From Lentisphaeria bacterium (lineage in GTDB: Bacteria > Verrucomicrobiota > Lentisphaeria > Victivallales > Victivallaceae): a stretch of DNA of 64,000 bases. The stretch is from assembly GCA_017450705.1 (NCBI GenBank), contig JAFSTC010000014.1:1-64000 (forward strand). The letters are read 5' to 3'. The notes under the pieces were generated by a model. It was not told where the DNA came from, did not search any database, and saw only the letters and a program-made list of their open reading frames with translations. Shown here in pieces: positions 37,517-54,995 of the stretch. Every line of letters begins with the position of its first letter. Positions within the stretch are counted from its first letter, which is position 1. Position numbers and translations under genes: made by a program.

Positions 37517-40500
37517 TTATTTCGCCGGAGGTGTCAAGGGGATGCGGCACGAGGTGCCGCCCGGAACCGAGACGGAAAAACGCTTCCCGCCGTACACGGG
37601 CGCAAGTTCGGGAGACGTGATCTCCGCACGGATCTCGTGTCCGGTCGGGTTGTGGACTTCCAGAAAAGCGTCGGCCGTGCCGTAGAGGACCGGCGTCAGT
37701 TTCAGATCCCGGTCCGAGGAGAGAAAGAGGTTGCCTCCCCAGAACGAGGCGGCTTTTTCCATGGACATCTGAAAATACATGGTGCGGTCATGAACGGGGA
37801 CGAAGGTGAAGACGCCTTTCGCATGATCGTAATAGGCGGCCGTCCCGTTGTCCTCGACGCCGCGGATGAAGAACGGCCAGTCGCAGATCATGGGAAATGC
37901 GGGGAGTTCCGCCGCAACTTCTCCATTTTCCGCGTGAAAAGCGATAAACCCGGGCGTAAAAATCTGATTTCCTCTTTTCATTGCGGCTTTTGCAGCGGGA
38001 TCGCTCAGGCGGTCTGCGATCTTGCGGCAATACGCGGCGGTATCCGGTGTCCCCACGCACGTGCAGACCGCAAGGAAAAACGAAACCTCGTCCCCCGCTT
38101 TGAACTTTTGCCCGGCCTTTCCGAAGCCGACGGCGAGAGTCCCGTTTGCGGCCAACCGGAATTTCGGACTCAGCGAGACCGATTGCGGAACGATCAGGAT
38201 CCGCCTGGTGGAATTTGTGCTGAGCACAGTGGCAAATCCCCCGTTTTTCAGTTCCCCCGCCTTGGCCGTGCCGGTCGAACTTTCCTCTATGCCGCTGGGC
38301 GTTTCCACAACGAGACGGTCCCAGAACCCCCGCTCTTTCGAATAATAGTCGGAGCCGGAGGTCATGGACACAAGGTGGATGGGCATATCCCCCTTCAGGA
38401 CGACGTCTTTCTTGAATTTCAGAAAGATGCGGTGATACATCAGTCCGCCCCGATAATCGTCATCGGCAAGCCACGGTCTGGTGAATCTGCACGACGGCCT
38501 GATCCGGCTGCGCATGAGCCAGGTCGTATGCCTGATGTCCGCGATCGGCTGATCTTCGCCCAGCGGGAAGAAGGAATAATAGGTGTAGGTCATCCGCCGG
38601 TCCGGGCGATGCCTTTTTTCCGTATGGACCCGCCGGTGAGAGTCCTGCGTGAGAATGGAAACTTCATTGGAGTTGACGGGATAACGCTGCCGGATCGCAT
38701 TCAGTTCATCCAGCTGATTGCTCCCGCCGGGCTGTTCTCCTTCTTCCGTCGACAGGCTGATATTGAGATCTGCGCAGGGTTTGAAGATAAAGGGGACGCC
38801 CGAGTCGATGCCGGCGATGGGCGTCGTGTCTTTTTTGCCCATGTCGAGACGGGCGGAATATATGTCCTCGAAATCGCGCAAAACCGGGACCTGATGACAG
38901 GGCGGGTGCATCAGGAGCGTGCTGTAGCCGAGAAGATTCAGATTGTCCGTACAGCGCGTGACCGCGTAATAGGGGTTCTGGATCAAAACCTCGGGCGAAA
39001 CGGCCTTTTTCCCGTTCAGATCCGTCACTTCGAGGACCAGGTGATGCACCCTGTCGTGAAGCGCGGCAAATTCCCGGGAAAACTGCTTTTGCCCCCTGCC
39101 GTCGAACCGCCGGAACAGCCCTTCCGTCCCGTCCCACACTTTGACGTCCCGGATCCCAGCGTCGGAGGAGACCTCGAATTTCAGCCGCACCCGCTGCCGT
39201 TTCTGCTGGACCTCGTAATCCGCCGCCGCGGAAGCATTGACCCCCTGCCAGAGGGAGATGGACGGCCCTTCGGACGCATATCCTCTTCCGCAGTCGAACG
39301 TGTTTTTCGTATTGAGCCACTCTTTGGCATTTTCCACGTTCCCGTAAACAAAATTCCAGCCGCAGGCCGCGGCCTCTTTTGCCAACCTCGCGGGCGAATA
39401 GATCCCGTTGAACACGATATTTCCCTGACCGCGGACGTCGTTCAGCGCAAAGAGATATTCCCGCAGATTTCGGGCGAGGACCTGGCCGTTTCTGCAGACT
39501 TTCACCGGGATCCGGAAGTACCACCAGAGATTGCTCGCATCGCCCAGTTCATGCAGACGGTCGTAGTTGAGAAGCGCGGAGGGCCTCCGGTTGCAGGAAG
39601 CGGCATACAGCCCCCACCAGTTCACTTTGTCTCTGGGACCGTTGAAAATATGGTCCTCCGGGAAGATGACGTCTTCTCCCCAGAAGGCCCAGCGCAGGCC
39701 GTTGGCTTCGCTGAATTCGATCCCGGGACAGGCGTAGAAATCTGGATCGGAAACGGCGGCGCAGGCCTTTTTCAGCGCGGCATATTTTTCCGGCGTCAGC
39801 TTTTCGAGGGATTCCGTAAAGGCCAGAAAACGATATCCGGCCTTCCTCGCGGCGGCGGCGTATTCGGAAACCGTTCCTTCGCCGTCGGAAAAGGCGCTGT
39901 GGACGCCGATCAGGCCCTTGACGCAGGGACTCCCGTCAGGAAACGGGACACGGTCGAAATTGGCCGGTTTCACCTTTTTTGCGGCAGTCGTCGGCGGCTC
40001 CTGATAGAACCCGATCCTGGGATTTTTCAACGCGTCGCGGAAGAGAAATCTGAACGTGTTCATGAGAAGCAAGGTCCCGTCGCTCTTCGTCTTCCCGTCC
40101 CCGTTCTTTTCCCAGACGGCGGGCCAGTCGCAGGCATGGGCGTTGATCGAGAGGTGCATCAGATTGCAGGAAATGACGGCGATCTTGCCCCTCCCGTAAG
40201 GACGCCAGGCGGCGAGGACGGGCGCCGATCTCAGGCTCCCCTCCCTCACGAAAAGGCTGTTTTTGGAGGTCTCCGCCGTCGTGACGTAGGACTTCGCCGT
40301 TTTTTCTCCGAAGACGACGGGCGTCCACTCCCGGGAGAGGATCAGTCCCATCGTCCCCCACATCCCGCCGCATCCCCATTCGGGGACGAAGAGCGTTTTC
40401 ACCCCTTTCGTCATGGGCGAGTCGACGATGTTGCCCGTGCGGAAAAACCGCAGGTAGGAAGGCGCCTTGGGCGCGGAAACGGAGAGAAACGGGTGACCCG

Positions 40501-41641
40501 GATAAGAGAACTGATTGGCGGGATCCGTGATCCCTTCGCGGAGCATTTTTATCCCGTACGGACCGAACATGAGATTGAAGATCTCGGGGCGGCGGTCCTG
40601 ACGGTATTCGCCGTTCTGGGGGACCAGAAGAACATTCCCGCCGATCTCGAGGTACCGGCGCAGCGCGTTCCGGTAAGCGAGGGTCGTTTCCTCGTAGTCC
40701 GCCTGCCGGAAGCCCCGGTCGAGGGAGAGGATCACGGCATGGTATTTGCACAGCTCCCCGAAGATCTTCTCCTCCGGGACGTTCCCGAAGACCCACGACA
40801 TGCTGTTCGTGGCATGCCCCGTCATGCCGTTCCGCTTCAGCGTGGAGTAAAGACCGAATCTCCGCCAGGCATCCCCGTAACGGAATTCCTCCGAGAAGAA
40901 TCCGATTTTGGGCGTCCGCCCGTTCAGGAAACAGCTGAGCTGTCCCGGAAAATTCATGCCCTCCTCTTTGCCGGCATCGGGCGACCCGGTGCCGTAAACG
41001 AGATCGTCCCCGAGGCAGGCGATGCTGCCGCACGGCAGGTTTTTCTCCCCGATGACGGCCATCGTCATTTTGGCGAGGCGCAGGAAACCTGCGGGGACCA
41101 GGCGGATCCCGTCTTTCCCGCCGCCGTTGGCCGGATTCCGGACATAAGCATCTTTCCCGTCGATGTCGTATTTCGCACACGCCGCGGCGAAGTCGACCAG
41201 CGGGATATCCCGCTCTTTTGCAATTGTTTTCAAAACATCATTTTCTTCGGCGATCCTGACATTCGGCGTCCGGTCCCCGTAGGCTTCTTTCGGGTTCCGG
41301 GCAAAAACAAGGTGTTCGTTGACGTTCGGGATCGTGACGAGGATGACCGGGATTTTTGCCGACTGGAACTGCGAGAGGATGCTTTCGATGCTTTTTTTGT
41401 AGTTTTCCTTCGTGATCTTGCCGCCCTTCCACGCGGCGTCCACGGTGCCGGTCATGACGACGGCAAGTTCTGCCTTTTCCTCGATCGCTTTTTTCGGCTG
41501 TTCCAGGGCGACTCTGGCGGCGGTCACGCCCGGTCTGGCAAGATTGATCACTCTGCTCGCGGCATGGAGCGGAGCCCCCGCGGCGACGAGGACCAGCCCT
41601 GCGAGAAGAACGGCGATGGGGCAGTTGTCGTGAAGGTGCAT
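37517..41641 (-). CDS. Giant secreted protein: degenerate permuted SGNH, GATase-like and PHP-like domains
   Basis: This 1374-residue protein starts MHLHDNCPIAVLLAGL with a signal peptide cut near APLHA; ATG 41641 has AGGAG upstream. Residues 28-240 match an SGNH hydrolase in permuted motif order: block II-like NLARPGVTA (33-41), block III GTVD (65-68), block V DGIR (177-180), then block I GDDL (211-214) in CLGDDLVYGTGSPDAGK. The catalytic Ser, Asn and His are replaced, so it is probably inactive and may bind ligand. Residues about 245-500 resemble a glutamine-amidotransferase/ThuA-like fold (LSLDRGFRQADYEE, IGGNVLLVPQNGEY). Residues about 575-780 resemble a PHP domain (GVHSAFSDGEGTVSEYA). The rest is beta-rich and unassigned. 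It is the last gene of the minus-strand locus led by the GntR-GH38 fusion. Confidence 0.8.
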   Translation of the reverse strand: MHLHDNCPIAVLLAGLVLVAAGAPLHAASRVINLARPGVTAARVALEQPKKAIEEKAELAVVMTGTVDAAWKGGKITKENYKKSIESILSQFQSAKIPVILVTIPNVNEHLVFARNPKEAYGDRTPNVRIAEENDVLKTIAKERDIPLVDFAAACAKYDIDGKDAYVRNPANGGGKDGIRLVPAGFLRLAKMTMAVIGEKNLPCGSIACLGDDLVYGTGSPDAGKEEGMNFPGQLSCFLNGRTPKIGFFSEEFRYGDAWRRFGLYSTLKRNGMTGHATNSMSWVFGNVPEEKIFGELCKYHAVILSLDRGFRQADYEETTLAYRNALRRYLEIGGNVLLVPQNGEYRQDRRPEIFNLMFGPYGIKMLREGITDPANQFSYPGHPFLSVSAPKAPSYLRFFRTGNIVDSPMTKGVKTLFVPEWGCGGMWGTMGLILSREWTPVVFGEKTAKSYVTTAETSKNSLFVREGSLRSAPVLAAWRPYGRGKIAVISCNLMHLSINAHACDWPAVWEKNGDGKTKSDGTLLLMNTFRFLFRDALKNPRIGFYQEPPTTAAKKVKPANFDRVPFPDGSPCVKGLIGVHSAFSDGEGTVSEYAAAARKAGYRFLAFTESLEKLTPEKYAALKKACAAVSDPDFYACPGIEFSEANGLRWAFWGEDVIFPEDHIFNGPRDKVNWWGLYAASCNRRPSALLNYDRLHELGDASNLWWYFRIPVKVCRNGQVLARNLREYLFALNDVRGQGNIVFNGIYSPARLAKEAAACGWNFVYGNVENAKEWLNTKNTFDCGRGYASEGPSISLWQGVNASAAADYEVQQKRQRVRLKFEVSSDAGIRDVKVWDGTEGLFRRFDGRGQKQFSREFAALHDRVHHLVLEVTDLNGKKAVSPEVLIQNPYYAVTRCTDNLNLLGYSTLLMHPPCHQVPVLRDFEDIYSARLDMGKKDTTPIAGIDSGVPFIFKPCADLNISLSTEEGEQPGGSNQLDELNAIRQRYPVNSNEVSILTQDSHRRVHTEKRHRPDRRMTYTYYSFFPLGEDQPIADIRHTTWLMRSRIRPSCRFTRPWLADDDYRGGLMYHRIFLKFKKDVVLKGDMPIHLVSMTSGSDYYSKERGFWDRLVVETPSGIEESSTGTAKAGELKNGGFATVLSTNSTRRILIVPQSVSLSPKFRLAANGTLAVGFGKAGQKFKAGDEVSFFLAVCTCVGTPDTAAYCRKIADRLSDPAAKAAMKRGNQIFTPGFIAFHAENGEVAAELPAFPMICDWPFFIRGVEDNGTAAYYDHAKGVFTFVPVHDRTMYFQMSMEKAASFWGGNLFLSSDRDLKLTPVLYGTADAFLEVHNPTGHEIRAEITSPELAPVYGGKRFSVSVPGGTSCRIPLTPPAK

Positions 41642-41663
41642 TTTTTTACTCCTGTCGTGTGGG

Positions 41664-42968
41664 TCAGATCGTCTTGCGGTGCACGATGCCCTGCTGGGAC
41701 ATCGCTTCGGCCTGAAGCGATTTGACGTCGATCTCCCGCGTTTTCCATTTTCCTTTGGCGAGAACCGCCGCGAGGCCGCAGATCTCTCCGACGGCGATAC
41801 AGGTCCCGTTGATCCTCGAAGAGGAAAACGCATCATGGGTCGCGGAGATGGGGCGGCCCGCGATCAGCAGATTGTCCACGCCCTGCGGCAGGAGGCAGCG
41901 GAAGGGGATCCCGTAACTCTTTTGGAGACAGAAGTGGGGCATCGGCGTCTCTCCGTGGATCCTGTCCGGGACATGGATGTCGATCCCCCACCCGCCGCGG
42001 GCGATCTCGTCGTCGAAATCCCGTCCCTCGATCACGTCCTCTTCGGTCAGGGTGTAGGCGCCCGCGATCCGGCGCGTTTCCCGGATCCCCGGCTGCATGG
42101 CGGTTTGAGCGACGTAGCAATTTTGGAATCCCGGCAGGTTTTTCCGGAAGAATTCGGCGATCTCCAGCGCCTGTTCCATGCCCTCTTTCCGGATCCGCGC
42201 CTGCCCTTCGTGGGTCAGCGGGGCGCAGTTCAAAATATGCGTCATGTTGACGGCGGCTTCTCCGTTGGTCCCGGGGAGATACGTGATCACCGTGTGATTG
42301 GTGGGCGTCATGTGCGGCTGTTTTTGCCACAACGCCGTCGCCTCGGTCATTTTGCGGGGGGCTTTTGTCATGTCGATCCCCGCGAGTTTGAAGGTGAGGG
42401 AACTGGACTGGACTTTCCCGTCCGTGTCGCGGCCGTACCGCACCGGACACCCCGCAAAATATGCCAGGTCGGCGTCGCCCGTGTCATCGATAAAGAAGGG
42501 CGCTTCCCACGCCTCCAGCCCCTGCTTCGAGGCCGTGACGATGTAGGAGATATCCCGCCGTTCCCGCCGCGCGGAGATCAGCGTGGTCTGAAGCAGGATC
42601 CTCACCCCGGCTTCCTGAAGCATCCGGAAGAGAACAAGATCCAGTTTCTCCGGATCGACCCGGTACGCCCAGCCGCCGTCCCGGGGCTGACTGCCGCCGA
42701 CCGCCTCCAGACGGCGGATCATTTCGCGCAGGAACAGGCCGTCCACCGTGATCTCCGAGTCCAGCCGGAGACCGGAGATGATCCCGAGTATCCCCGAGAC
42801 CGGGACGCCGCCGAGTTTGTGATAGTGCTCGATCAGCAGGACGTCCAACCCTCTTCGGGCGGCATTCCAAGCGGCGGCGCATCCGCTCAACCCGGCTCCG
42901 CATACGATCAAGTCGCACGCTCCCGAGACCGGGACCGTTTCCCGGGGAAATTTGACGGATTTTCTCAC
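41664..42968 (-). CDS. FAD-dependent oxidoreductase
   Basis: This 434-residue protein belongs to the FAD_oxidored type: a dinucleotide-binding [17 protein letters not shown] near residues 24-40, [11 protein letters not shown], and an FAD-contacting segment [25 protein letters not shown] near the C-terminus, shown here in parts. No signal peptide is present. A GTG start at 42968 overlaps the pseudopilin stop (GTGA) and has AAGGA upstream, so translation is coupled; a longer frame starting at 43205 would run through the pseudopilin gene out of frame. Related proteins recur in glycan loci of this phylum and may oxidise sugar alcohols or side chains; the substrate is inferred only. Confidence 0.87.
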
Positions 42969-43729
42969 AGGGCCGTTCCTTTGGCGTTCCAGAAGTAGTC
43001 GTTGGTCCGGATGTCCTGACCGGTTTGCAACGCCCGCAGCCCCCGCGGATCCGTGTTCTTTATCGACTCCATATGGCCGTCGACGAACAGGGTATTGGCC
43101 GCCTGGCTGTGCCGGAAATCCGGTTCCGCGCCTTCGCTGTCCCGGTATTTTTTGCGGCTGGTCCAGTAGCTCCCCGTCCCGTAATTGTAGGCTGCTCCGG
43201 TCCACCCGTCGATCAAATACATCGCTCGGCCCGCTTGCGTGATCTGATTCACCTTGTAGTAGAAACAGGTCCCGTAGACATCTCCCGCCGCATTCGTCCC
43301 GTTGTAATCCGGGCTCTGGGTGATGCCCAGATTCAAATAGTAGCTGATATTCTTTTCACGCCTGTCCTGAGGACACTGCATCATGCCGCGCTTTTCGGAG
43401 CCGTTGTTTTTCTTGCCGAAGTTGCCGGACATATATCCCTTTTCGAACAGGATCTTCGTCCAGGGGTCGATCGCGCTTGCCGAAACTTTTATGCCCGCAT
43501 TCATGAGCCACCCCTGGGAATCGTTGGAGTACATCATGAAATTCGTTCCCCACTGCTTCATCTGCGAGGTGCAGTTGATCGCGCCCGCCCGTTCTCTCGC
43601 CTGCTGCAGCGCGGGCATCAGCATCGCCGCCAAAATCGCGATGATCGCTATAACGACAAGAAGTTCGATCAATGTGAATTTCGGATCCGCATTTGACGGA
43701 CGACACGGCGAACGGTCGTTTTTTTCCAT
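42965..43729 (-). CDS. Pseudopilin-like protein with H-X9-DG motif, locus 3
   Basis: This 254-residue protein starts [17 protein letters not shown]. The pilin-type signal has Phe18 and Glu22 (+5) in [20 protein letters not shown] with Lys at -1. The C-terminal [15 protein letters not shown] is an exact H-X9-DG signature. ATG 43729 follows AGGAAAAG; 43777 is a weaker start. It lies 44 bp after the permuted SGNH hydrolase and its TGA overlaps the next gene's GTG. It is the third pseudopilin in the window embedded in a regulated enzyme locus, with one per locus. Confidence 0.88.
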
Positions 43730-43773
43730 GTTTCTTTTCCTGTCGCGTGTTCTTGTTTGAAGTGATCGGCGGT

Positions 43774-44502
43774 TCATTTTGTTTCATCCTTTCCGTTTGC
43801 TGCCGTCAAATATTTTTTGAGTTGTCCGGGATACGTCGTTCCTGAAATTTTTCCGGCATCGGGGCTGCCGACGCCGTAGGTCAGACTGTCGCCGATACAC
43901 AGGATCTTTTTCGGCAAATATCCTGCCTGCCGGATCGTATCGGCCACGCATTCCGCAAGCGCGGCGTAGCCCTCCTCCGTAAGGTGGATCCCGTCGGCGA
44001 CGCCGGAATTTTCCGGGAGGCGAAGCAGTGATCTTTTCCCCTCACATCCCCTTTTCATGACGACGGCATGAAGATCCGCGAGGGGCAATTTCTTCGCTTC
44101 CGCGGCTTGTTTCAATATCGCATTGAACTTGAGGATCCGTTCGTTGGGAAGTTTTTCGCCGAAAACTTCTTTGCCGTGCCGCCGAAAAAGACAGGCCTCG
44201 TTGCAGGGAGGGAGCGTGACGAGGATCAGCCTGCTTTGCGCTCCGAGGATCTCTTTTACGGCAAGATCCAAGGTTTTGAGAAACGCTTCCTGCGAGGACA
44301 GAACTTTGGAATTGCAGGCATCGTTCGTTCCGAAAAGCATCACGGTCACGTCCGGTTTCACTTCCAGCGCATTCCGGAGCCATTTTTCGTTCACGGAGAC
44401 AAATGGTTTCCCCGGAACGCTCCGGACGAAGACCTGAACGTCTTCCGCCGCAAATGCGCCCGCCAGGGCCGCCGCCATGGAAAACAGGAGGGTTTTCTTC
44501 AT
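43774..44502 (-). CDS. Circularly permuted SGNH hydrolase, secreted
   Basis: This 242-residue protein has a signal peptide ([19 protein letters not shown]). Motif order is block II-like SVPGKPF (Gly31), block III GTND (Asn60), block V DGIH (Asp170, His173), then block I GDSL (Ser206) in [17 protein letters not shown] close to the C-terminus. Canonical SGNH enzymes have block I first. Joining the C-terminal segment ahead of residue 21 gives a standard SGNH sequence, so the fold is probably intact with new termini and a complete catalytic set. The ATG at 44502 is placed by the signal peptide; its ribosome-binding site is weak. The last gene of the operon carries a degenerate copy of the same permuted domain. 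Confidence 0.85.
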
Positions 44503-44589
44503 TGCCGTAAAACATCCCGCCGGCAAACCGATCGATGCGCCATGTCGCCCCATTTTCAAAATCTCTCTTTTTTTTGTTCCGTCACCCGG

Positions 44590-47208
44590 TCACCGGATGA
44601 GAATGTTTTTGATCTCGAAGGGCTTGAACTTCAACTCGGGGGAGGGGAGGGCCTTCCCGTCATTTCCCAACCCGTCGGTCTCGAACAGGGTTTTGCCTTC
44701 GGCCAGCGCCCCGGCGAGGGTCGTCGTGAGCGGGAGACCGCGCGTCTCGTAAACGCGGAGGAACAGTCCCTTCTTCAAGTTGCGGACCGAGGAGACCGCC
44801 GCGCCGGGGAGCCTGAGTTGAGACCCCTCCGGCAGGGAGCCCGTCAGCACCTGGACGGGGCGGTTCAGCAGAGCGCCCAGTTCATAAGCCTTGATCATAT
44901 CCATTGGACTATGCGCCCGGAAAGCGAAACGGTAATGATGCAAGCCGTTGTCGTAGGAGCCCGGCTGGGGCGTCAACTGACCGTCGCGGGTGGCGGTCCC
45001 GCTCCGCAGGAGGGCAACGGTGATGACGCCGTTGCTCAACTGGTGTCCGGGCGTTCCGGTGTTGGCGACCGTAAGGCCCATGGAATAATCGGAAAGGTTG
45101 ACCCAGTTCAGCGCGGGCCAGTCCCCCTTGGCTTCCCGGTAATCTCCTGAGGTCTGAAGCTGCTGCAGCGTGGATTCGTACTTTTCGTCCACCTCGAAAT
45201 AGGGCTTCCGGACCAGCGCGGAAAAGGGCGTCTCGTAGGTCCCGGCGGCCTTCAGGGGATCCACCGCTGTGGGGAAGCAAATGGAGACTTTGGTGTTGCA
45301 TCCCGTCCAGTCGAGTTCGAGATCCAGTGTGAAATAGTCCAGTTCGTTGTAAAACCGGTACTCTTTGCGGAAGGCGAGCGCGCCGAACCCCGGCCAATGG
45401 GGCCCGAGATTGCCGGAGGCGGCCGGTCCGGGAAGCACGTTCCCCTCCGTCACGACGCGGCGGAAGACACCTCCCGCTTCGCAGAGCACGACCTTTTCCC
45501 GGAAAAACTCCAGGGGGATCGGCAGCTGCCAGAAATCCTCCGACCACATGGAGCCGGTGTCCCGCTGGACGCGCAGCGCTCCGAAGCCGTCGGCGGAAAA
45601 AACGTTTTTCCCGTTCAGGTTCCGGATCACGGGAGAGGGCCCGAAGAAATCGGCGTGGAAATATTTCGTGTCGAAAACGGGCTCGCAGGGCCTGGCCGCG
45701 GCGGCTTTCCCCGTTTTTTTGAACGTCTTGATCCCGAAGGAAGGCAGATCGACGGTGTAAACGGCCAGATCTCCCGCTTTCTGGGCCGCGACGCCCTCCG
45801 GGACGACCGGCGACGTGACCAGCTGGGGCCCCTCCGCGGTCGAAAAACTGCAGAGAGAATATCCCTTGCCCGGGATCGGATCGGATTTTGCGCCTTGCGC
45901 CGTTTCCAGGTATTTGTCGATCTCCGGAGTGCAGGCGTCGACGTGACAGCCGCATGCGGCGTCGTGGAACTGGGCCGAAAGAAGCGAACGCCATTCTTTG
46001 CGGAACTCGTTTTCTTTGCCGAGGACGGCGTTGAGGTATTCGGCGCGGAACAGAGCCGATTCCGCCTGGCGGATCGCTTGCTTCGTGCCGATCCGCGTCG
46101 TGTAGCAGCCGGTGAAGACCGGATTGAATTCGCCGCGGTAGTCCGGCAGATCGTCCAAGGAAGCGTCGGCGAGATACCGGTGACAGGAGCCCGGGACGAT
46201 CTGCTTGCCCCCCAGCCCGTTCGCCATGGCGAGGATGCTGAAAATGCTCTCCTGAAACGTGCCTTCTTCGGTGGAGTAGGAGAGCAGAACGGTCCCCGGC
46301 AGCTGTTTCGCCGCCAGAATGTTTTTCAGGAGCCGGGTCTCCCCGGTCTGCACCAGAGGGACGTTCAATTCATACCCGAGGTGGGTGATCTCGGCGGTAT
46401 TGCGGAAAACGGTGACGCCTCCGTTGCCGGCTAAAGATTCCCAGCGGAAAAGATCGGCTTGTGCGATTTCCTGGGGCTGATTGGGCGTCCGGCCGGGAGA
46501 GAGGTACCGGATGCCGCACTGCATCAAAATCTGCGGCAGCTGGGCGCACATGCCGAAGGCATCGTTGAAGCGGGCAAGATCGCTGGAGCGGCCGAGAGTT
46601 TCCCGATACCAGGCAAGTCCCTGCTCCAGATTGCGGAAGATCGATTCGCCGCTGACCATATTGAGGTCCGGGATGCTGTAAACCGAGCACAGTTCCAGGC
46701 GGCCTTCCGCCGCAAGTTTCTTTGCCGTTGTCAGGAGCTCCGGATGCTGTTCGAAAAACGCGCGTCCGATCTCCGCCTGCTCCAGCTGGAAGGAAACGCC
46801 GTCATACGCGTCGGCATACCGGAACTCGGTGAGCAGCTGTTCTTCGCGTATCTTTTTGTATTCTGATGTCGGGCGCCGCCAGATCAGATCGGAATGGTGA
46901 CAGAAATAGAGGTAGGCTTTTCCCGGCCCCGCTCCCGTTCCCTGTTGCTGACGATGGGGTTCGGCAATGGCGGAAGCGTGGGGAGAAACGTAGAACCCGG
47001 AGGCGCCGCGGCACTCGACATAGCCGTTGCCCATCAATTCCTTGAGCGCATTTTGAATGACGGAGAGACTGACGTCGAACCGGGCGGACATTTCGCGCAC
47101 GGTCGCCAGGCGCTCCCCCGGAGCGATGACGCCCTCCCGGATCAGTTTCATGATCTCCCGAACGACCTGATCCCGCTTGGGAGGCTTTGCTTTCAGTGAT
47201 TCTTTCAT
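44590..47208 (-). CDS. GntR helix-turn-helix fused to a GH38 alpha-mannosidase-like enzyme
   Basis: This 872-residue protein is one uninterrupted frame. Residues 12-76 form a GntR winged helix (DQVVREIMKLIREGVIAPGE; MSARFDVSLSVIQNALKELM). Residues 97-872 form a GH38-type enzyme with the metal-site opening CHHSDLIW (His105, Asp107), nucleophile-type Asp216 in NDAFG, YSTEEG (311-316) and QFHDAACG (His415, Asp416), followed by the long beta C-terminal domain. Catalytic positions are largely kept, so it may both cleave or bind a mannoside and control transcription. No signal peptide, as expected for a DNA-binding protein. ATG 47208 has GGAG nine bases upstream; a TTG nine bases earlier is possible. 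It has a strong promoter and leads the locus. Confidence 0.88.
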   Translation of the reverse strand: MKESLKAKPPKRDQVVREIMKLIREGVIAPGERLATVREMSARFDVSLSVIQNALKELMGNGYVECRGASGFYVSPHASAIAEPHRQQQGTGAGPGKAYLYFCHHSDLIWRRPTSEYKKIREEQLLTEFRYADAYDGVSFQLEQAEIGRAFFEQHPELLTTAKKLAAEGRLELCSVYSIPDLNMVSGESIFRNLEQGLAWYRETLGRSSDLARFNDAFGMCAQLPQILMQCGIRYLSPGRTPNQPQEIAQADLFRWESLAGNGGVTVFRNTAEITHLGYELNVPLVQTGETRLLKNILAAKQLPGTVLLSYSTEEGTFQESIFSILAMANGLGGKQIVPGSCHRYLADASLDDLPDYRGEFNPVFTGCYTTRIGTKQAIRQAESALFRAEYLNAVLGKENEFRKEWRSLLSAQFHDAACGCHVDACTPEIDKYLETAQGAKSDPIPGKGYSLCSFSTAEGPQLVTSPVVPEGVAAQKAGDLAVYTVDLPSFGIKTFKKTGKAAAARPCEPVFDTKYFHADFFGPSPVIRNLNGKNVFSADGFGALRVQRDTGSMWSEDFWQLPIPLEFFREKVVLCEAGGVFRRVVTEGNVLPGPAASGNLGPHWPGFGALAFRKEYRFYNELDYFTLDLELDWTGCNTKVSICFPTAVDPLKAAGTYETPFSALVRKPYFEVDEKYESTLQQLQTSGDYREAKGDWPALNWVNLSDYSMGLTVANTGTPGHQLSNGVITVALLRSGTATRDGQLTPQPGSYDNGLHHYRFAFRAHSPMDMIKAYELGALLNRPVQVLTGSLPEGSQLRLPGAAVSSVRNLKKGLFLRVYETRGLPLTTTLAGALAEGKTLFETDGLGNDGKALPSPELKFKPFEIKNILIR

Positions 47209-47245
47209 GGGGCGCAACTCCAGTGTTTCTGTGGATCTTGGAGCA

Positions 47246-47274
47246 AATATAGCCCGTGCTCAACGGTTTGTCAA
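47246..47274 (-). promoter_or_regulatory. Strong promoter of the GntR-GH38 locus
   Basis: On the minus strand: TTGACA (47269-47274), a 17-bp spacer and TATATT (47246-47251). Upstream, three 10-bp-spaced A-tracts (TACAAAAAAT, TACGAAAAAA, TACAAAGC, about 47282-47311) would form a bent UP-like element. Confidence 0.85.
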
Positions 47275-47382
47275 GAGCGGCAATACAAAAAATTACGAAA
47301 AAATACAAAGCGTTTCCCGTGTTCCCCCTCCGAACAGGCGAGGGCGGCTAATGACTCCCCCAAATCCCCCGCTTTTCAAAAT

Positions 47383-47535
47383 GCTCTGTTCCCGATAAGG
47401 GTCGGTTGTTCCGGGGGAAGGGGAAAACCTCTTTTCCCCGTGAAAAGAGGTTTTCCCCTTCCCCCGTGCCCCCATCCCTTTTCGAGAAAAGCGATGTGTT
47501 TTTGAACTGCCGCCTACCTGTGTGGGGGACAGAGC
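47383..47535. repeat. Dispersed palindromic element, copy 6 (best preserved)
   Basis: Terminal repeats GCTCTGTTCCC (47383-47393) and GGGGACAGAGC (47525-47535) match at 10 of 11 positions, and the similarity continues outward into GCTTTT-rich flanks. The internal hairpin has perfect 25-bp arms (47412-47436, 47442-47466) around loop CCCGT. No open frame of its own. Confidence 0.88.
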
Positions 47536-47844
47536 CTTTCAAAAAAGCGCTGTATTGGGGCTGATCGGGAAAAACGTGAGAATTAGCAAAAATCTCGAAT
47601 TGCCCCCCGCTGGGGTCCAACGGCAGCGCAAGTTATTCGAAATAAGCTTGCATTCAACGCGTTGCGGCGATATATTCCAGTACACTTATCGAACATTTAT
47701 TATAAAAAAATCGATAGGTTATTCGACCTCGGCGCTCTTCGGGTAGGTGTAGGGCGATTTCAGGCAAGACGGCAGGCGAATAGGTGAAGTTTGTTGAGGG
47801 GCAGCGGGTCAGTTCTTGATTTGACTTGGGGGAAGGGCAAAAAA
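47536..47844. other. Gene-free AT-rich spacer
   Basis: Between the palindromic element and the tRNA-linked array I see no gene, promoter of quality or hairpin. Bases about 47640-47730 are distinctly AT-rich (for example AACATTTATTATAAAAAAATCG) compared with the surrounding GC-rich DNA, which hints at foreign or decayed sequence. Confidence 0.5.
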
Positions 47845-48307
47845 ATGGCAGTCCCGCAAGGATTCGACGAGGAGGGGCGAAGCCGCGACGAAGAGCCGCC
47901 GGTGGAGCCGGCGGCAACCTCCGCCCCGAAGACGTGCGGGACGGGAGATTTTTCCTCCCCGTCAGGGGGGAAGCCGGAGGCGGGGAAAAAGGGAAACGCA
48001 GTTTTCGTTTTGCCTTGCCGACGGCGGAGGAGCGCGTCAGAGGCGCGCGGGGGAAATCGATTTTTTTGCAAAAAAATGGCAGTCCCGTAAGGATTCGACG
48101 AGGAGCGCCGAAGGCGCGACGAAGAGCCGCCGGGCGTGCCCGGCGGCAACCTCCGCCCCGAAGACTTGCGAGGGAAGAGATTTTTCCTCCCCGTTCCGGG
48201 GAGAAGCGGGAGGCGGGTCAAAAGGGAAACGCAGTTTTCATTTTGACTTGCCGACAGCGAGAGAGCGCGTCGCAGACGCGCGTGAAAAATCGTTTTATTG
48301 CAAAAAA
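47845..48307 (-). repeat. Tandem array of two 231/232-bp units carrying tRNA-Gln 3' ends
   Basis: Units start at 47845 and 48076, and the third start, 48308, is the real tRNA. Each unit opens with ATGGCAGTCCCG(C/T)AAGGATTCGA, the reverse complement of the tRNA-Gln 3' acceptor and T-arm including CCA. About 205 bp of GC-rich, hairpin-forming sequence follows and ends in TTTTTTTGCAAAAAAA or a variant. The array lies immediately 3' of the tRNA in its direction of transcription. Confidence 0.88.
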
Positions 48308-48308
48308 A

Positions 48309-48382
48309 TGGCAGTCCCGCAAGGATTCGAACCTCGACAAAGTGAACCAGAATCACTTGTGCTACCGTTACACCACGGGACT
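48309..48382 (-). tRNA. tRNA-Gln (anticodon CTG), CCA encoded
   Basis: The minus-strand transcript folds as a full cloverleaf: acceptor AGTCCCG/CGGGACT with discriminator G and encoded CCA, D-loop containing GGTAGC, anticodon stem AGTGA/TCACT with loop TTCTGGT (anticodon CTG) and T-arm with GGTTCGAATCC. A TATATT -10 lies upstream (about 48395-48400 read on the minus strand). A T8 run follows the 3' end and could terminate the transcript. Confidence 0.94.
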
Positions 48383-48457
48383 GCGAACACCCTATAATAT
48401 ACCCGTCTTCCGCGGAAAAGCAAGCAGGGAAACGAAAAAAGTCGGAAAAACGGTGCG

Positions 48458-49369
48458 TCAGCCCCGGGGATGGAACTGACGATGGACCGAAATGAGCTTG
48501 CTGCGGTCCACGTGCGTGTAGATCTCCGTCGTGGCGATGTTGGCGTGGCCGAGCATCTCCTGGATGGCGCGCAGATCCGCCCCGTGGGCCAGCAGATGGC
48601 TGGCGAAGGAGTGCCGCAGGGTGTGGGGATGGATGTTTTTCGTGATCCCCGCCCGGGAGGCGGCCAGCTTCACCACCTGCCAGATGCGCTCGCGGTCCAG
48701 CGCGCGGCCGCGGTAGGAGAGGAAAAGCGCCGGATTGGCCGGATTCCGCGCGGAAAAGACCGGGCGGGAGAGCTCCAGGTAGCGCCGGAGCTGCCGCAGG
48801 GCGGGTTTCCCCACCGGCACGAGGCGCGTTTTGCTCCCCTTTCCCGTGACCCGGATCATCTCCTCCTCGAGGTCGATGGCCTTGAAGGTGAGATTCGCCG
48901 TTTCCGACACCCGGAGCCCCGAGGAGTACAGAAGTTCGAGGATCGTCCGGTTGCGCACCTCCAGGGGATCGTCGGACTCCTCGGGAAAGGCTTTCAGGAT
49001 GTCGATGACCTCCTGCTCGGAGAGGAAGTCGGGGAGGATCTTCCACAGCCGGGGAGACTCCATCACCTCGGTGACATCGTCCTTGATGCGCTCTTCGTTC
49101 TTGAGGTACCGGAAGAGCATTTTCAGGGCGATGAGATGGTGGGCCGCGGTCGTGCTCTCCAATCCCCTGTCGCGCAGATCGTCCAGGTAGTCGAGGAGCA
49201 TGTCCCGGGTCACCTGGCTCCAGGACGTGACCTTCTGGACGTCCCGGAGATAAGCCGCGGCGGACTCCAGATCGAAAACGTAGGCGGAACGGGTGTTGCC
49301 GGCCAGACCGCGCTCGAGGATGATGAATTCGCCGAACTCGGCGATCTCCCGGTCCAGAGGCAGGTCCAT
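48458..49369 (-). CDS. xerD: Tyrosine recombinase XerD/XerC
   Basis: This 303-residue protein has the N-terminal SAM-like DNA-binding domain (1-105) and the catalytic domain with all expected residues: Arg153 (SSGLRVSE), Lys177 (TGKGSKTR), His249 and Arg252 (HTLRHSF), His275 (LGHANIATT) and nucleophile Tyr284 (IYTHVD). It resolves chromosome dimers at dif with FtsK. The length and domain layout are of the housekeeping type rather than of a phage integrase, although it is next to a tRNA with repeated 3' ends. Its ATG overlaps the stop of the LOG-family gene (TAATG), so it is translated from the lpxB-LOG-xerD operon. XerC versus XerD cannot be decided without a tree. Confidence 0.92.
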   Translation of the reverse strand: MDLPLDREIAEFGEFIILERGLAGNTRSAYVFDLESAAAYLRDVQKVTSWSQVTRDMLLDYLDDLRDRGLESTTAAHHLIALKMLFRYLKNEERIKDDVTEVMESPRLWKILPDFLSEQEVIDILKAFPEESDDPLEVRNRTILELLYSSGLRVSETANLTFKAIDLEEEMIRVTGKGSKTRLVPVGKPALRQLRRYLELSRPVFSARNPANPALFLSYRGRALDRERIWQVVKLAASRAGITKNIHPHTLRHSFASHLLAHGADLRAIQEMLGHANIATTEIYTHVDRSKLISVHRQFHPRG

Positions 49370-50073
49370 TACTTCACCGTTCCCCGGGGGCCGTAGCGGT
49401 GGCACTCGACGAGCCAGTCGACGGCCTCCTGACCGGAGTCCACGACCTTGAAAAGATTCAGATCGCCCGGATCGATCATGCCGCCCTCGGCGAGGTCCTT
49501 TTTCATCCAGTGGACGAGCCCGTTCCAGAACTCCTTGCCGACGAAAACGATCGGGATCATGTTGATTTTTTTCGTCTGGACCATGGTCAGCATCTCGCTC
49601 ACTTCGTCCATGGTCCCGAAGCCGCCCGGATAGGCGATCAGCGCCGTGCTGTACTTGAGGAAACAGACCTTGCGGACGAAAAAGTAACGGAACGACAGGG
49701 AGTCGGTCTGGTAGGGGTTGGGCTGCTGCTCCATGGGCAGTTCGATGTTGAGCCCGATGGAGCGTCCGCCGGACTCGAAGGCGCCCCGGGCGGCGGCTTC
49801 CATGATCCCCGGTCCGCCGCCGGTGATGACGCCGTAGCCCGCCTCCGTCAGAAGTTTCCCCGCGTGCCGCGCATCGGCGTACATGGGATCGTCTTCCGGC
49901 GTGCGGGCCGAACCGAAGACCGACACCAGCATGTCGGGCATCCTGATCATGTAGTCGAAGGAGTCGACGAACTCCGCCATGATGCGCAGGATGCGCCACG
50001 AATCCGCGGGCATGAATTCCGTCTTGTTGGCGAAGACCCACGCTCCGTCCTTGATACTGGGATGATCGATCAT
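49369..50073 (-). CDS. LOG-family protein (putative cytokinin riboside 5'-monophosphate phosphoribohydrolase)
   Basis: This 234-residue protein starts MIDHPSIKDGAWVFANKT. It has the Rossmann-type LOG signatures GGGPGIMEAA and PGGFGTMDE, which define nucleotide 5'-monophosphate phosphoribohydrolases of the TIGR00730 family. The N-terminal 45 residues are an extra segment found in the longer bacterial members. ATG 50073 follows GGAGGGAGAG and overlaps the lpxB stop (ATGA), while its own stop overlaps the xerD start. The true substrate in bacteria is often unknown; purine salvage is one possibility. Confidence 0.93.
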   Translation of the reverse strand: MIDHPSIKDGAWVFANKTEFMPADSWRILRIMAEFVDSFDYMIRMPDMLVSVFGSARTPEDDPMYADARHAGKLLTEAGYGVITGGGPGIMEAAARGAFESGGRSIGLNIELPMEQQPNPYQTDSLSFRYFFVRKVCFLKYSTALIAYPGGFGTMDEVSEMLTMVQTKKINMIPIVFVGKEFWNGLVHWMKKDLAEGGMIDPGDLNLFKVVDSGQEAVDWLVECHRYGPRGTVK

Positions 50074-51266
50074 TTTTTCTCTCCCTCCGTTGTGTGAGAT
50101 TGCTGTTCCCCGGAAACGCCGGCCGCCTCCAGGCAGGCCGCCGCGGCCTGGAGCGCGGCGTCGCCCGTGCCGGAGGAAAGAAGCCGGGCCACCTCGGCCA
50201 TTTCCTCTTCGACCTCCCGCCGGCGGCTGCCGCCGGGCAGGATCGCTTCCACAGGTCCCAGAAGCTCCTTCGCGCAGAAATGGTGCTGCAGGAACTCCTG
50301 AAAGACCGTCTTGTTCGCGATGATGTTCACCATGGTGAAATATCCGCGGTAGAGCCGGACCACGAGACTGGCCAGCAAAATTGTGATCCAGTTCATCCGG
50401 TAGCCCACCACGAGGGGCAGACCGGCGATGGCGGACTCCACCGTCACCGTGCCGCTGGCGGCGAGGCCCGTGCCCGCCCGCTGCTGCCAGAGCCCCGTGT
50501 CGCCGCAGCTGACGGGGATGTCGGGCAGGCCGCCGTGCTTTTTCCGGTAGATGCCGATCCTTTCCCGGCAGAGGACGGCGATCTTTTCCCGGGGGGCGGC
50601 CAGGTGGAAGCGCAGTTCGGGATGCCGCGCGGCGAGACAGGTCACCGTGTCCAGCATGGGGTCGAGCAGACGGTTGATCTCCATGACCCGGGAGCCGGGC
50701 AGAAGCAGGAACATGTCCCGCTCCCGGACGACGGCGGGATCCCGGCGTTCCGACACGATGTCGATCAGCGGATGGCCGACGAATTCCGCCCGCAGAGGCG
50801 TCCGGGCGAAGACCTCCACCTCGAAGGGAAAGATCACCAGCATCTTCGTGCAGATGCGGGCCAGCACGGGGAGCCGCCACTTGCCCCACACCCAGAGGTG
50901 CGGCGAAACGTACCAGACCACCTTGATCCGGCTGAAATACATGGCCAGCGCATACGCGAGATTGAATCCGGGGTAGTCGATGAGCACCACCGCGTCCGGA
51001 CGCTCCCGGCGGGCGGCCTTCACCAGCTTGAAGTAGATGGCGATGAAGGTGAAGAGGAGTTTCATCACCTCGATCACACCCATGACGCCCAGCTCGGTCG
51101 AGTCCACCTTGACGGGGATGCCGGAGGAGATCATTTCGGGGCCGCCCATGCCGGAGAGTTCCAGCGGCACGCCCCGTTCGGCGGCCAGCTTGCGGAGCGC
51201 CTTGCCGAGGCGTGCCCCGTACAGGTCGCCCGAGGCTTCTCCCGCGAAGATCCAGATCTTTTTCAT
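50070..51266 (-). CDS. lpxB: Lipid-A-disaccharide synthase
   Basis: This 398-residue protein matches LpxB (GT19): IFAGEASGDLYGARL at the N-terminus, GMGGPEM, LIDYPGFNL, WYVSPHLWVWG and the C-terminal SGTVTVESA motif followed by VGYRMN. It condenses UDP-2,3-diacylglucosamine with lipid X at the inner membrane to form the lipid A disaccharide. ATG 51266 follows CAGGAAG. The gene heads the operon lpxB-LOG-xerD with four-base overlaps, and a promoter sits at 51313-51341. Together with waaG-like and waaP-like genes near the window end, it shows an LPS-bearing outer membrane. Confidence 0.96.
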   Translation of the reverse strand: MKKIWIFAGEASGDLYGARLGKALRKLAAERGVPLELSGMGGPEMISSGIPVKVDSTELGVMGVIEVMKLLFTFIAIYFKLVKAARRERPDAVVLIDYPGFNLAYALAMYFSRIKVVWYVSPHLWVWGKWRLPVLARICTKMLVIFPFEVEVFARTPLRAEFVGHPLIDIVSERRDPAVVRERDMFLLLPGSRVMEINRLLDPMLDTVTCLAARHPELRFHLAAPREKIAVLCRERIGIYRKKHGGLPDIPVSCGDTGLWQQRAGTGLAASGTVTVESAIAGLPLVVGYRMNWITILLASLVVRLYRGYFTMVNIIANKTVFQEFLQHHFCAKELLGPVEAILPGGSRRREVEEEMAEVARLLSSGTGDAALQAAAACLEAAGVSGEQQSHTTEGEKK

Positions 51267-51312
51267 GCTTCCTGCCGGCAGGGCTGGACTGCCGGTTCGT
51301 TCCTCCGGGCAT

Positions 51313-51341
51313 AAGATACAGCGTTTCCGGTCCGCTTTCAA
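51313..51341 (-). promoter_or_regulatory. Promoter of the lpxB operon
   Basis: On the minus strand: TTGAAA (51336-51341), a 17-bp spacer and TATCTT (51313-51318), 47 bp ahead of the lpxB ATG. Confidence 0.7.
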
Positions 51342-51344
51342 GTC

Positions 51345-51377
51345 CGGAAAAAGAAAAAGCCCCCCGTTTCCGGAGGG
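51345..51377 (-). terminator. Rho-independent terminator of the 51401 gene
   Basis: On the minus strand a CCCTCCG-GAAA-CGGGGGG hairpin (51360-51377) is followed by CTTTTTCTTTTT. It lies between the stop of the hypothetical gene and the lpxB promoter, separating the two units. Confidence 0.85.
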
Positions 51378-51400
51378 CCGAAGGAAGCGTCGGGGGGAGA

Positions 51401-52384
51401 TCACTTCCCGGAGAAAGCGAATTCCGACTTGAGGAAGCGCTTTATGTACGCCGCGGCCTCGGGGCACTTTTCGATCTCCCGGTCGCCGAGGATGACGATG
51501 TCCCGGATCTTCCCCGCGGCCAGGTGACGGCGGGCCTTTTCCAGGTGATAGCGCATCGTTTCCGCGGAGTTCGGCAGGCAGGCGGCACCGTAGTCGAACA
51601 TGAAGATCCCCAGCATGATGGGCTTGCCGGGAAAGAGCGCGCGGCACTTTTCGACGGCCAGATCCAGCTCCATCAGGTCGGTCTTCCACCAGAACCACAA
51701 AATCACGTGATCGATGCATGGGGCCACGGCCTTGAGTTCGCGGGTCATATCGAGCTCCCACGAGTAGACCACGCCGTAGAGCTCCAGCGCGGGGTTGTGC
51801 TTGTGCAGTGCCTCGTGGATGGCCTTGTATTCCCGCAGGGAGTAGTTGACACCGTAGTTGCCCGTCATGTCGTCCACGACGCCGCCCACCACGTTGGGGT
51901 AGGCGAGCGAGAGGCGGCTGAGCCGTTCGGCCTCCTCCGCGTCGGAAGCGGCGGCGGCGCCGGAGGTCCGGCAGTTGCGGCCCAGGTGGCAGATCACCTT
52001 TTTGCAGCAGCGGTGGAGATCGAGCATCTCCTCGTTGAGGGGGCCGTAGACGTACATCACGTTGTCGACGCCGAAGAACTCCTTGGCCTTGATGCCGGCG
52101 TCCTTGTCCATGGAGCCGCCCCAGCTGGGCGTGGGGCCGCCCCAGACGAAGACGTTCTCCTTCGAGAAGTGTTCGGGACCCTTCAGCGCGAGGTCCAGCT
52201 CGTACCAGCGTTTGAGCATCTCCTCGGACTCGGCGGTGGTCTTTTCGATGATGCGCAGGTATTCGGGCGAGGCGAATTTCTCCTGATAGGGGCGGATCTT
52301 GAGCTCCTGGGTCTCCTCCGCGATGCGGGTGAATTCCTTGCGCAGCTTTGCGCGCTGCTCCATCAGTTCGGCGAACTCATTCAT
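51401..52384 (-). CDS. Uncharacterised protein, possible TIM-barrel
   Basis: This 327-residue protein starts MNEFAELMEQRAKLRKEF. The first 75 residues are a predicted helical or coiled region rich in charged residues; the rest alternates hydrophobic strands and helices in the style of a TIM barrel (VGGVVDDMTGNYG, ALELYGVVYSWELDM, HVILWFWWKTDLMELD, IMLGIFMFDYGAAC, RDIVILGDREIEKCP). Acidic residues at strand ends, as in VVDDM and YSWELD, suggest a hydrolase, but no family is recognised. No signal peptide is present. The ATG at 52384 has AGAGAGGA upstream. It is separated from lpxB by a good terminator and may be expressed with the CBM9-like gene 140 bp upstream. Confidence 0.72.
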   Translation of the reverse strand: MNEFAELMEQRAKLRKEFTRIAEETQELKIRPYQEKFASPEYLRIIEKTTAESEEMLKRWYELDLALKGPEHFSKENVFVWGGPTPSWGGSMDKDAGIKAKEFFGVDNVMYVYGPLNEEMLDLHRCCKKVICHLGRNCRTSGAAAASDAEEAERLSRLSLAYPNVVGGVVDDMTGNYGVNYSLREYKAIHEALHKHNPALELYGVVYSWELDMTRELKAVAPCIDHVILWFWWKTDLMELDLAVEKCRALFPGKPIMLGIFMFDYGAACLPNSAETMRYHLEKARRHLAAGKIRDIVILGDREIEKCPEAAAYIKRFLKSEFAFSGK

Positions 52385-52523
52385 TTTCCGGTCCTCTCTT
52401 GTGTATGTGCCCTCATTTGACGGCGCATATAAGATACCACTTTTCCCGCCGAAAGGAAATGTAAACTTGCGGCTTTCTTGTGTCAAAAAAACGCATTCCG
52501 GAGGACGGCGGGGAGACGGTTCC

Positions 52524-53201
52524 TCACAGCGCCGCGGGATCGCCGCCGATCTCCAGCATGCCGTACTGGTCGATGAGATGGAAGTCGGGTATCTGGATCG
52601 GCGGCACGGTGGAGAGTTCCTTGAGGGGCAGACGCCGCGAGTAGTTCTGGCGGGCGATCAGGAAGGTCCAGGGTCGGCCCGGGGAAAACTTCGCGCCGTA
52701 CTGTTCGAACTCGGAGATGGGGAACTTGAATTCGATCTTCCAGCCGCGGTCGGTGGTCCGCCAGTCGTTCATGACGCCGTCGACGCTGGCCGCCACTTCG
52801 AAATTGGGCACCTGGTCGGCGCTCCGGGGAACGAAGACGTAGGAGCGGGAGGGGTAGAAGAAGGTGGTCCGCAGACCGTTGGGCGTGCCGTACATCTCCC
52901 AGTAGTAGGTGTCGTCGGCGGGTTTCAGAAAAATCTCGATGGTGTCGCCCATGGTGTAGTGGTGCTGCTGGTCGGCCGTGCCCTGGGCGACGACGTCGGA
53001 GTCCTCCATATCCACGGCGACGTACCAGAAGCGGTCGCTGTGGAGCATTTTGACCGTTCCGGTCTCGTTGAGGGTCTCCCCCAGTTTTGAGTCGCGCTGT
53101 CCGATGCGCGAGAACGCCCAGTCGTCGGCCAGATCCCACTCTTTTGCCGAAATTTTGCCGTCGATGGCAAAGTCGGCGCACTTTTTGACGAGATAAGACA
53201 T
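52524..53201 (-). CDS. CBM9/DOMON-like carbohydrate-binding protein
   Basis: This 225-residue protein starts MSYLVKKCADFAIDGKISAKEWDLADDW, matching the opening of family-9-like carbohydrate-binding modules. DTIEIFLKPADDTYYWEMYGTPNG and GWKIEFKFPISEF add to the pattern; these segments form a beta-sandwich with aromatic ligand-platform residues. No signal peptide or catalytic domain is present, so it is a stand-alone module, odd for a CBM and perhaps cytosolic. The ATG at 53201 follows GGAGAAAA; the in-frame ATG at 53219 is an alternative. Confidence 0.78.
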   Translation of the reverse strand: MSYLVKKCADFAIDGKISAKEWDLADDWAFSRIGQRDSKLGETLNETGTVKMLHSDRFWYVAVDMEDSDVVAQGTADQQHHYTMGDTIEIFLKPADDTYYWEMYGTPNGLRTTFFYPSRSYVFVPRSADQVPNFEVAASVDGVMNDWRTTDRGWKIEFKFPISEFEQYGAKFSPGRPWTFLIARQNYSRRLPLKELSTVPPIQIPDFHLIDQYGMLEIGGDPAAL

Positions 53202-53229
53202 TTTTTTCTCCGTTTGCATTCTCTTTCTC

Positions 53230-53270
53230 CCGGCGGGACGCGTTCCGGGGGCTCCGGGACGTCCCGCCGG
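53230..53270. other. Inverted repeat between convergent-spacing genes
   Basis: CCGGCGGGACG (53230-53240) and CGTCCCGCCGG (53260-53270) are perfect 11-bp arms around a 19-bp spacer that itself contains a CCGG repeat. There is no T run, so it is either a leader hairpin for the CBM9-like gene or a weak terminator for the FAD protein gene. Confidence 0.55.
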
Positions 53271-53300
53271 CCTATACTTTACCCCCGGTGAGTGAAAAAA

Positions 53301-54848: not shown

Positions 54849-54882
54849 CCCAAGATCCCCTCTTCTCCTCTGTCACGCCTAT

Positions 54883-54911
54883 AAGATACTTTGAAAAAAC
54901 GCCGTTTTCAA
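54883..54911 (-). promoter_or_regulatory. Promoter of the COG2509-type gene
   Basis: On the minus strand: TTGAAA (54906-54911), a 17-bp spacer and TATCTT (54883-54888). Confidence 0.68.
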
Positions 54912-54933
54912 GGCGGGAAGGGCGCGGGATTTC

Positions 54934-54962
54934 TTGCAAAGAGCCGACAGACATGATATATT
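54934..54962 (+). promoter_or_regulatory. Promoter of the DAHP synthase gene
   Basis: TTGCAA (54934-54939), a 17-bp spacer and TATATT (54957-54962), 34 bp ahead of the GTG at 54996. Confidence 0.72.
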
Positions 54963-54995
54963 AATCGGCGGAAGATCAGCGGGAAGGAAGGGATC

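Follow-up and report, generated by a model that had tools for sequence, protein, structure and literature searches.

Transcriptional regulators of the GntR family usually bind palindromic operators. Six classes of C-terminal effector domains have been described in this family, namely FadR, HutC, MocR, YtrA, AraR and PlmA (PMC12842492). In MocR regulators, the fusion partner of the GntR helix-turn-helix (HTH) is an entire enzyme-like fold that serves as a sensor, and the operators are often direct repeats (PMC5320631). A regulator of this family is also associated with a glycosidase, since MngR regulates mngA and mngB (PMC12842492); Suvorova et al., reviewing GntR regulators, give the direct repeats bound by FarR (MngR) as TGTATTAWTT (PMC4494728). 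However, no description of a GntR-glycosidase fusion was found in the literature that we searched.

Here, we analysed a stretch of 64,000 nucleotides from a gut-type Lentisphaeria bacterium of the phylum Lentisphaerota (the window), in which a gene of the reverse strand (44590..47208) encodes a GntR-GH38 fusion protein of 872 amino acids; all the features given below lie on this strand. The frame (47208..44590) is uninterrupted over 872 codons from its ATG. The initial annotation described an intact GntR HTH joined to a GH38-type enzyme, and this description is confirmed by the open frame and by Pfam, with matches to GntR at residues 12-74 (E 4.6e-12, 45.8 bits for a cut-off of 27), Glyco_hydro_38N at 105-271 (E 1.7e-25), Alpha-mann_mid at 365-437 (E 1.1e-12) and Glyco_hydro_38C at 604-738 (E 6e-8). 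All four matches exceed the curated cut-offs. Beyond HTH-type matches, Pfam gave GH38 domains only, and the C-terminal part matches none of the six described effector classes. In the AlphaFold model (mean pLDDT 91, pTM 0.86), the winged helix (residues 11-76, 46981..47178), which is also supported by Pfam and by omega, comprises helices 11-24, 37-44 and 48-60 and wing strands 64-66 and 72-74. It is followed by a fast-evolving linker (residues 77-94, 46927..46980), predicted to be disordered at residues 82-93, where pLDDT is below 50. According to Pfam and to the fold match, the remainder (residues 95-872, 44593..46926) corresponds to the catalytic, helical and beta domains of GH38, the N, middle and C domains being all present and in order. 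With VIA-align, this part of the model superimposed on 727 residues of SpGH38 (2wyi_B), the GH38 enzyme of Streptococcus pyogenes (PMC2815779), with a Z of 38.4 and an rmsd of 2.8. A translation start after residue 80, which the initial annotation had considered as a way to separate the enzyme from the HTH, is unavailable because there is no in-frame ATG, GTG or TTG between codons 59 and 184.

The motifs CHHSD (residues 103-107), NDAFG (215-219) and QFHDAACG (413-420), which the enzyme was said to keep, were all found. Among 37 aligned sequences, the zinc ligands His105 and Asp107 of CHHSD (46888..46896; H13 and D15 in SpGH38), the nucleophile and zinc ligand Asp216 (46561..46563; D125), the zinc ligand His415 of QFHD (45964..45966; H351) and Arg240 (R149) are invariant, the roles of the SpGH38 residues being taken from PMC2815779. 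However, the acid/base Asp typical of GH38 is replaced by Glu. The fusion family has TEE where the Asp232 region of SpGH38 has GDGGGG, and Glu314 (46267..46269), which is invariant in 22 fusions, is the candidate acid/base corresponding to Asp232 on the basis of the aligned region and of the Ams1 alignment. The claim that the catalytic residues are kept is thus correct for the zinc ligands and the nucleophile, but not for the acid/base Asp. Standalone relatives outside the fusion clade also have Glu at this position, which is therefore a trait of the subfamily rather than a loss accompanying the fusion. Moreover, descendants of the fusion that lack the HTH (see later in the text) retain the zinc, nucleophile, Arg and Glu residues, and this retention favours a working enzyme. 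Given the Glu, the putative activity and its substrate may differ from those of characterised GH38 enzymes. No NCBIfam model passed its cut-off for the fusion protein, and the best match of the enzyme part, mannosylglycerate hydrolase, is far below the cut-off.

At least 22 full-length fusion homologues align with the window protein across both domains (35-49% identity), and a second full-length copy (39% identity) is present in the host genome. In a class-wide search, the homologues were spread over several families, and all the named fusion-bearing records retrieved by an alignment query of a collection of 84,980 species belong to Lentisphaerota (Lentisphaeria/Victivallales). The window is akin to a Victivallis genome of the same family, which indicates an origin in or near Victivallaceae. 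Viral contigs and plasmids gave no relatives. No other enzyme was found fused to an HTH of this type in 149 genomes, the frames of >500 amino acids retrieved at E 1e-12 being GH38 fusions only. In close pairs, omega was 0.02-0.08 for the HTH and 0.06-0.17 for GH38; for the linker it was 0.24-1.35 in clean close pairs, a range that excludes L041, L044 and L046, the linker/GH38 boundary being misplaced for L041 and L044. These values indicate that both ends of the protein are maintained by purifying selection, whereas the linker is free.

In a quick maximum-likelihood tree, every fusion falls inside one well-supported set comprising 30 rows and the standalone enzymes branch outside it. Three HTH-less lineages are nested in this set (L105; L096 and L103; L097 and L100); L109, labelled enzyme-only in the tree, is in fact a fusion gene interrupted by a frameshift. 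The tree fits a single fusion event followed by at least three nested HTH losses. The HTH-less relative L097 (41% identity) comes from a record titled Murimonas intestini that is marked as contaminated; it stands beside the Clostridiales HTH-less relative L100, suggesting a transfer out of Lentisphaerota with HTH loss. We also noted a fusion gene (L058:4274-6939; G183:C361) that is frameshifted near residue 287 and preceded by an intact-looking operator, which is either a sequencing error or a decaying copy. At two loci (L041:8425-10911 in G096 and L044:8506-10992 in G094), a separate and very divergent HTH-less GH38 enzyme adjoins the fusion; a UxuA-like gene lies beside this enzyme in L041.

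The window gene is preceded by a sigma-70-like promoter (TTGACA-17-TATATT, 47246..47274) with 11 of the 12 consensus bases. It had been presented as the strongest promoter of its locus, and it is indeed the best consensus match in 41000-55000, although strength is judged here from the consensus only. Upstream, three tandem units, TTTGTATTTT TTCGTAATTT TTTGTATTG (47281..47309), follow each other in exact 10-bp steps, with their G residues exactly 10 bp apart. This candidate operator ends six bases before the -35 box, is included in the stretch named earlier for footprinting (47230-47310) and, unlike the usual GntR palindrome, is a tandem direct repeat. It is the sole site at ≤1 mismatch from the consensus array in the 3.97 Mb host genome, and the search of this genome for a wider regulon gave one other site only, at three mismatches. 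Because its middle unit is GTAA, the window array is not significant on its own in an exact 5-mer test at lags of 10 and 11 bp, and its status as a candidate operator rests on the consensus of the family, on where it lies and on the lack of a second such site in the genome.

In 19 fusion promoters, identical 5-mers recur at a 10-bp lag 30 times for 3.1 expected (z 12). Self-repeats were also enriched at 20 bp (z 9) and 11 bp (z 3.8), and the other short lags were at background level. Fusion promoters contain on average 1.58 lag-10 repeats compared with 0.44 in 75 further promoters from these loci. This comparison is conservative, since the control set retains the promoter of a fusion fragment and another that a fusion shares. 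No signal of this kind was detected ahead of eight HTH-less relatives. In most fusion promoters, the core of the unit is GTAT, and the position of the array varies with the member: the units are either forward and upstream of the -35 box, or reversed and located around or after the -10 box (L017, L035, L040, L051, L052 and L056). L041, L044 and L046 have no clear array, and the fusions of L041 and L044 have their own internal promoter. The exact motif TTGTATTNTTTTGTATT occurs four times in ten genomes, every time directly upstream of a fusion gene. When ≤1 mismatch is allowed, 11 of its 17 matches in these genomes are directly upstream of fusion genes, and the remaining six are fewer than the 12 matches of a reversed control pattern. 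We propose these conserved 10-bp repeats, which are specific to fusion promoters, as candidate operators of the fusion HTH.

The type of unit varies with residue 52 of the protein, in the recognition helix. Of the 17 Gln52-type fusion promoters, 11 have an exact GTAT-N6/7-GTAT, which is present in 3 of the 75 controls (Fisher p 7e-8), whereas the Tyr52 and His52 types have GTTC, GAAAC (GTTTC) or TTTC arrays in place of GTAT. As the Tyr52 and His52 proteins group together in the tree, this match may go back to just one evolutionary change, and we regard it as no more than suggestive. Upstream of L045 and L047, whose fusions have an SVAYR helix, GAAACAA is repeated three or four times in 10-bp steps after the -10 box; these fusions share genomes with GTAT-type fusions. 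In addition, a GntR-Peripla_BP regulator with an SVIQ helix (L162:598-1689) has GTATCGTCTTGTATT overlapping its own -10 region, and repeats of this 10-bp type may extend to further GntR regulators of Lentisphaerota.

Among the described systems, MngR/MngB of E. coli, the mannosylglycerate system, is a close parallel, in that a GntR-type HTH with direct-repeat TGTATT operators controls the GH38 enzyme MngB. The HTH profile of the fusions matches MngR with 44 bits and their enzyme profile matches MngB with 102 bits. The DNA upstream of mngR in E. coli K-12 has GTAT at an 11-bp spacing, and most fusion promoters have GTAT repeats at 10-11 bp. L048 and L058 contain the unit TGTATTATTT, the window units being weaker matches. 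However, MngR and MngB are two separate proteins, whereas in the fusion the enzyme replaces the effector domain. Moreover, the sensor domain of MngR is of the HutC type (UTRA) and MngR has a PTS transporter as partner, whereas Pfam found no UTRA domain in the fusion. The fusion thus looks like a regulator-enzyme pair of the MngR/MngB type in one chain, which would regulate its own glycan-degradation operon. We make no claim of direct descent from that pair, since the nearest HTHs in the class are those of GntR-Peripla_BP (AraR-like) regulators. L162, which is of this type, has the same SVIQ helix and is likewise preceded by a promoter with a GTAT repeat at 10 bp, but the effector of AraR-type regulators is a LacI-like sugar-binding domain and not an enzyme. 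With MocR, GabR and PdxR, the fusion shares the joining of a GntR HTH to a whole enzyme-like fold; the initial annotation, in giving small effector domains as the norm for GntR proteins, did not take into account the whole aminotransferase-like domain of MocR. These regulators differ from the fusion by their PLP fold, of which Pfam found no trace here while the fold search gave GH38, by the zinc and nucleophile residues kept in the fusion, and by the tandem arrangement of the fusion repeats, 10 bp apart. Finally, SpGH38, Ams1 and Golgi alpha-mannosidase II resemble the fusion over the full-length fold and in the zinc/nucleophile site, but the fusion has an additional N-terminal DNA-binding domain, Glu for the acid/base Asp and no GDGGGG loop.

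Four genes follow the fusion gene in the operon. They encode a secreted-looking GDSL/SGNH esterase (43774..44559; Pfam Lipase_GDSL_2, E 7.3e-19), found in the same order in L055; a pilin-like N_methyl protein (42965..43777), homologues of which follow most fusion genes; an FAD_oxidored protein (41664..42968; Pfam E 1.4e-101), also present in the L055, L043 and L046 loci; and a GDSL-domain protein of ∼1375 amino acids with a weak PHP match (37517..41641). A DUF1559- or pilin-like relative is found after the fusion in most fusion operons. Other fusion loci encode DUF4838 or pectate-lyase-like proteins, and genes for separate GntR-Peripla_BP regulators lie close to some of the fusions.

Altogether, the fusion, its conservation, the selection on both domains and the repeats linked to fusion genes are supported by sequence comparisons, and we consider it probable that the protein is a self-regulating regulator and enzyme in one chain, with the HTH acting on the GTAT repeats and the occupancy of the GH38 domain acting as effector. 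From the repeats, we infer that the winged helix would bind the tandem 10-bp units immediately ahead of its promoter, with several chains aligned along the same face of the double helix, and that the fusion would thereby control the operon it heads, that is, its own gene and those of the esterase, the pilin-like protein, the FAD oxidoreductase and the large GDSL protein. The GH38 domain would most likely still hydrolyse an imported alpha-mannoside-like sugar, although the window operon showed no sugar transporter. Because this domain takes the place of the effector domain, occupancy of the active site would be the natural signal, relief of repression being likelier than activation, and turnover of the sugar would reset the switch. 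As to the sign of the regulation, the overlap of the array with the -35 box, the -10 box or the start, seen in many members, speaks for repression; the array of the window lies upstream of the -35 box. The proposal that a glycosidase used as a sensor gates transcription is therefore partly upheld: the fusion is real and conserved and has candidate operators, whereas catalytic activity, the sugar and an effect of the ligand on DNA binding are what we infer from this architecture.

Other explanations must be weighed against the self-regulating enzyme. The protein could be a regulator only, its GH38 domain binding a sugar without turnover, as does the aminotransferase-like domain of MocR in its role of sensor. 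The replacement of the acid/base Asp by Glu and of the GDGGGG loop by TEE would be in agreement with a sensor devoid of activity, as would the presence of other glycan enzymes in the operon. We nevertheless regard this as rather unlikely, considering that the zinc ligands, the nucleophile and the Arg are invariant in 37 sequences, that descendants without any HTH keep the same residues, suggesting a useful enzyme, and that the Glu, shared with standalone relatives outside the fusion clade, was not brought about by the fusion. An artefact is extremely improbable. A misassembly chimera, or two proteins translated separately, might be evoked by the frameshifted homologue of L058, but both were rejected on the basis of 22 full-length fusions, two of them in the host genome, and of the lack of an internal start.

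The repeats themselves may have another meaning. They could be phased A/T tracts resembling UP elements, or a different regulator could bind to them; the fused HTH would then be a passenger or bind elsewhere. Indeed, the arrays are T-rich, helically phased and often upstream of the -35 box, and the GntR-Peripla_BP regulators encoded near some fusions could provide the other protein. However, the unit has a conserved GTAT core, the signal is missing from the 75 other promoters and from the HTH-less relatives, and in six loci the reversed units lie around or after the -10 box, a position from which an UP element would have no effect. Furthermore, the unit type varies with the recognition-helix residue, and purifying selection on the HTH is strong. 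Such an origin of the repeats therefore seems improbable to us, and we retain the fused HTH as the protein that would read them.

An enzyme-like sensor is already known in GntR regulators (PMC5320631), and a glycosidase class would be an addition to the six listed (PMC12842492). We see an even chance that a catalytically active glycosidase is the ligand-sensing domain, that the binding and turnover of one sugar in a single active site directly govern how strongly the operon is expressed and that these proteins form a seventh class of GntR C-terminal domains. The HTH losses, the paralogues with different recognition helices and the matching repeat types constitute a set for studying how GntR proteins read direct repeats, and the GntR-GH38 design could serve as a modular sugar biosensor. 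If the proposal is true, these bacteria would possess a transcription factor with a complete glycoside hydrolase as its sensor, the catalytic centre of which is apparently retained, so that a single molecule would both read its signal and destroy it.
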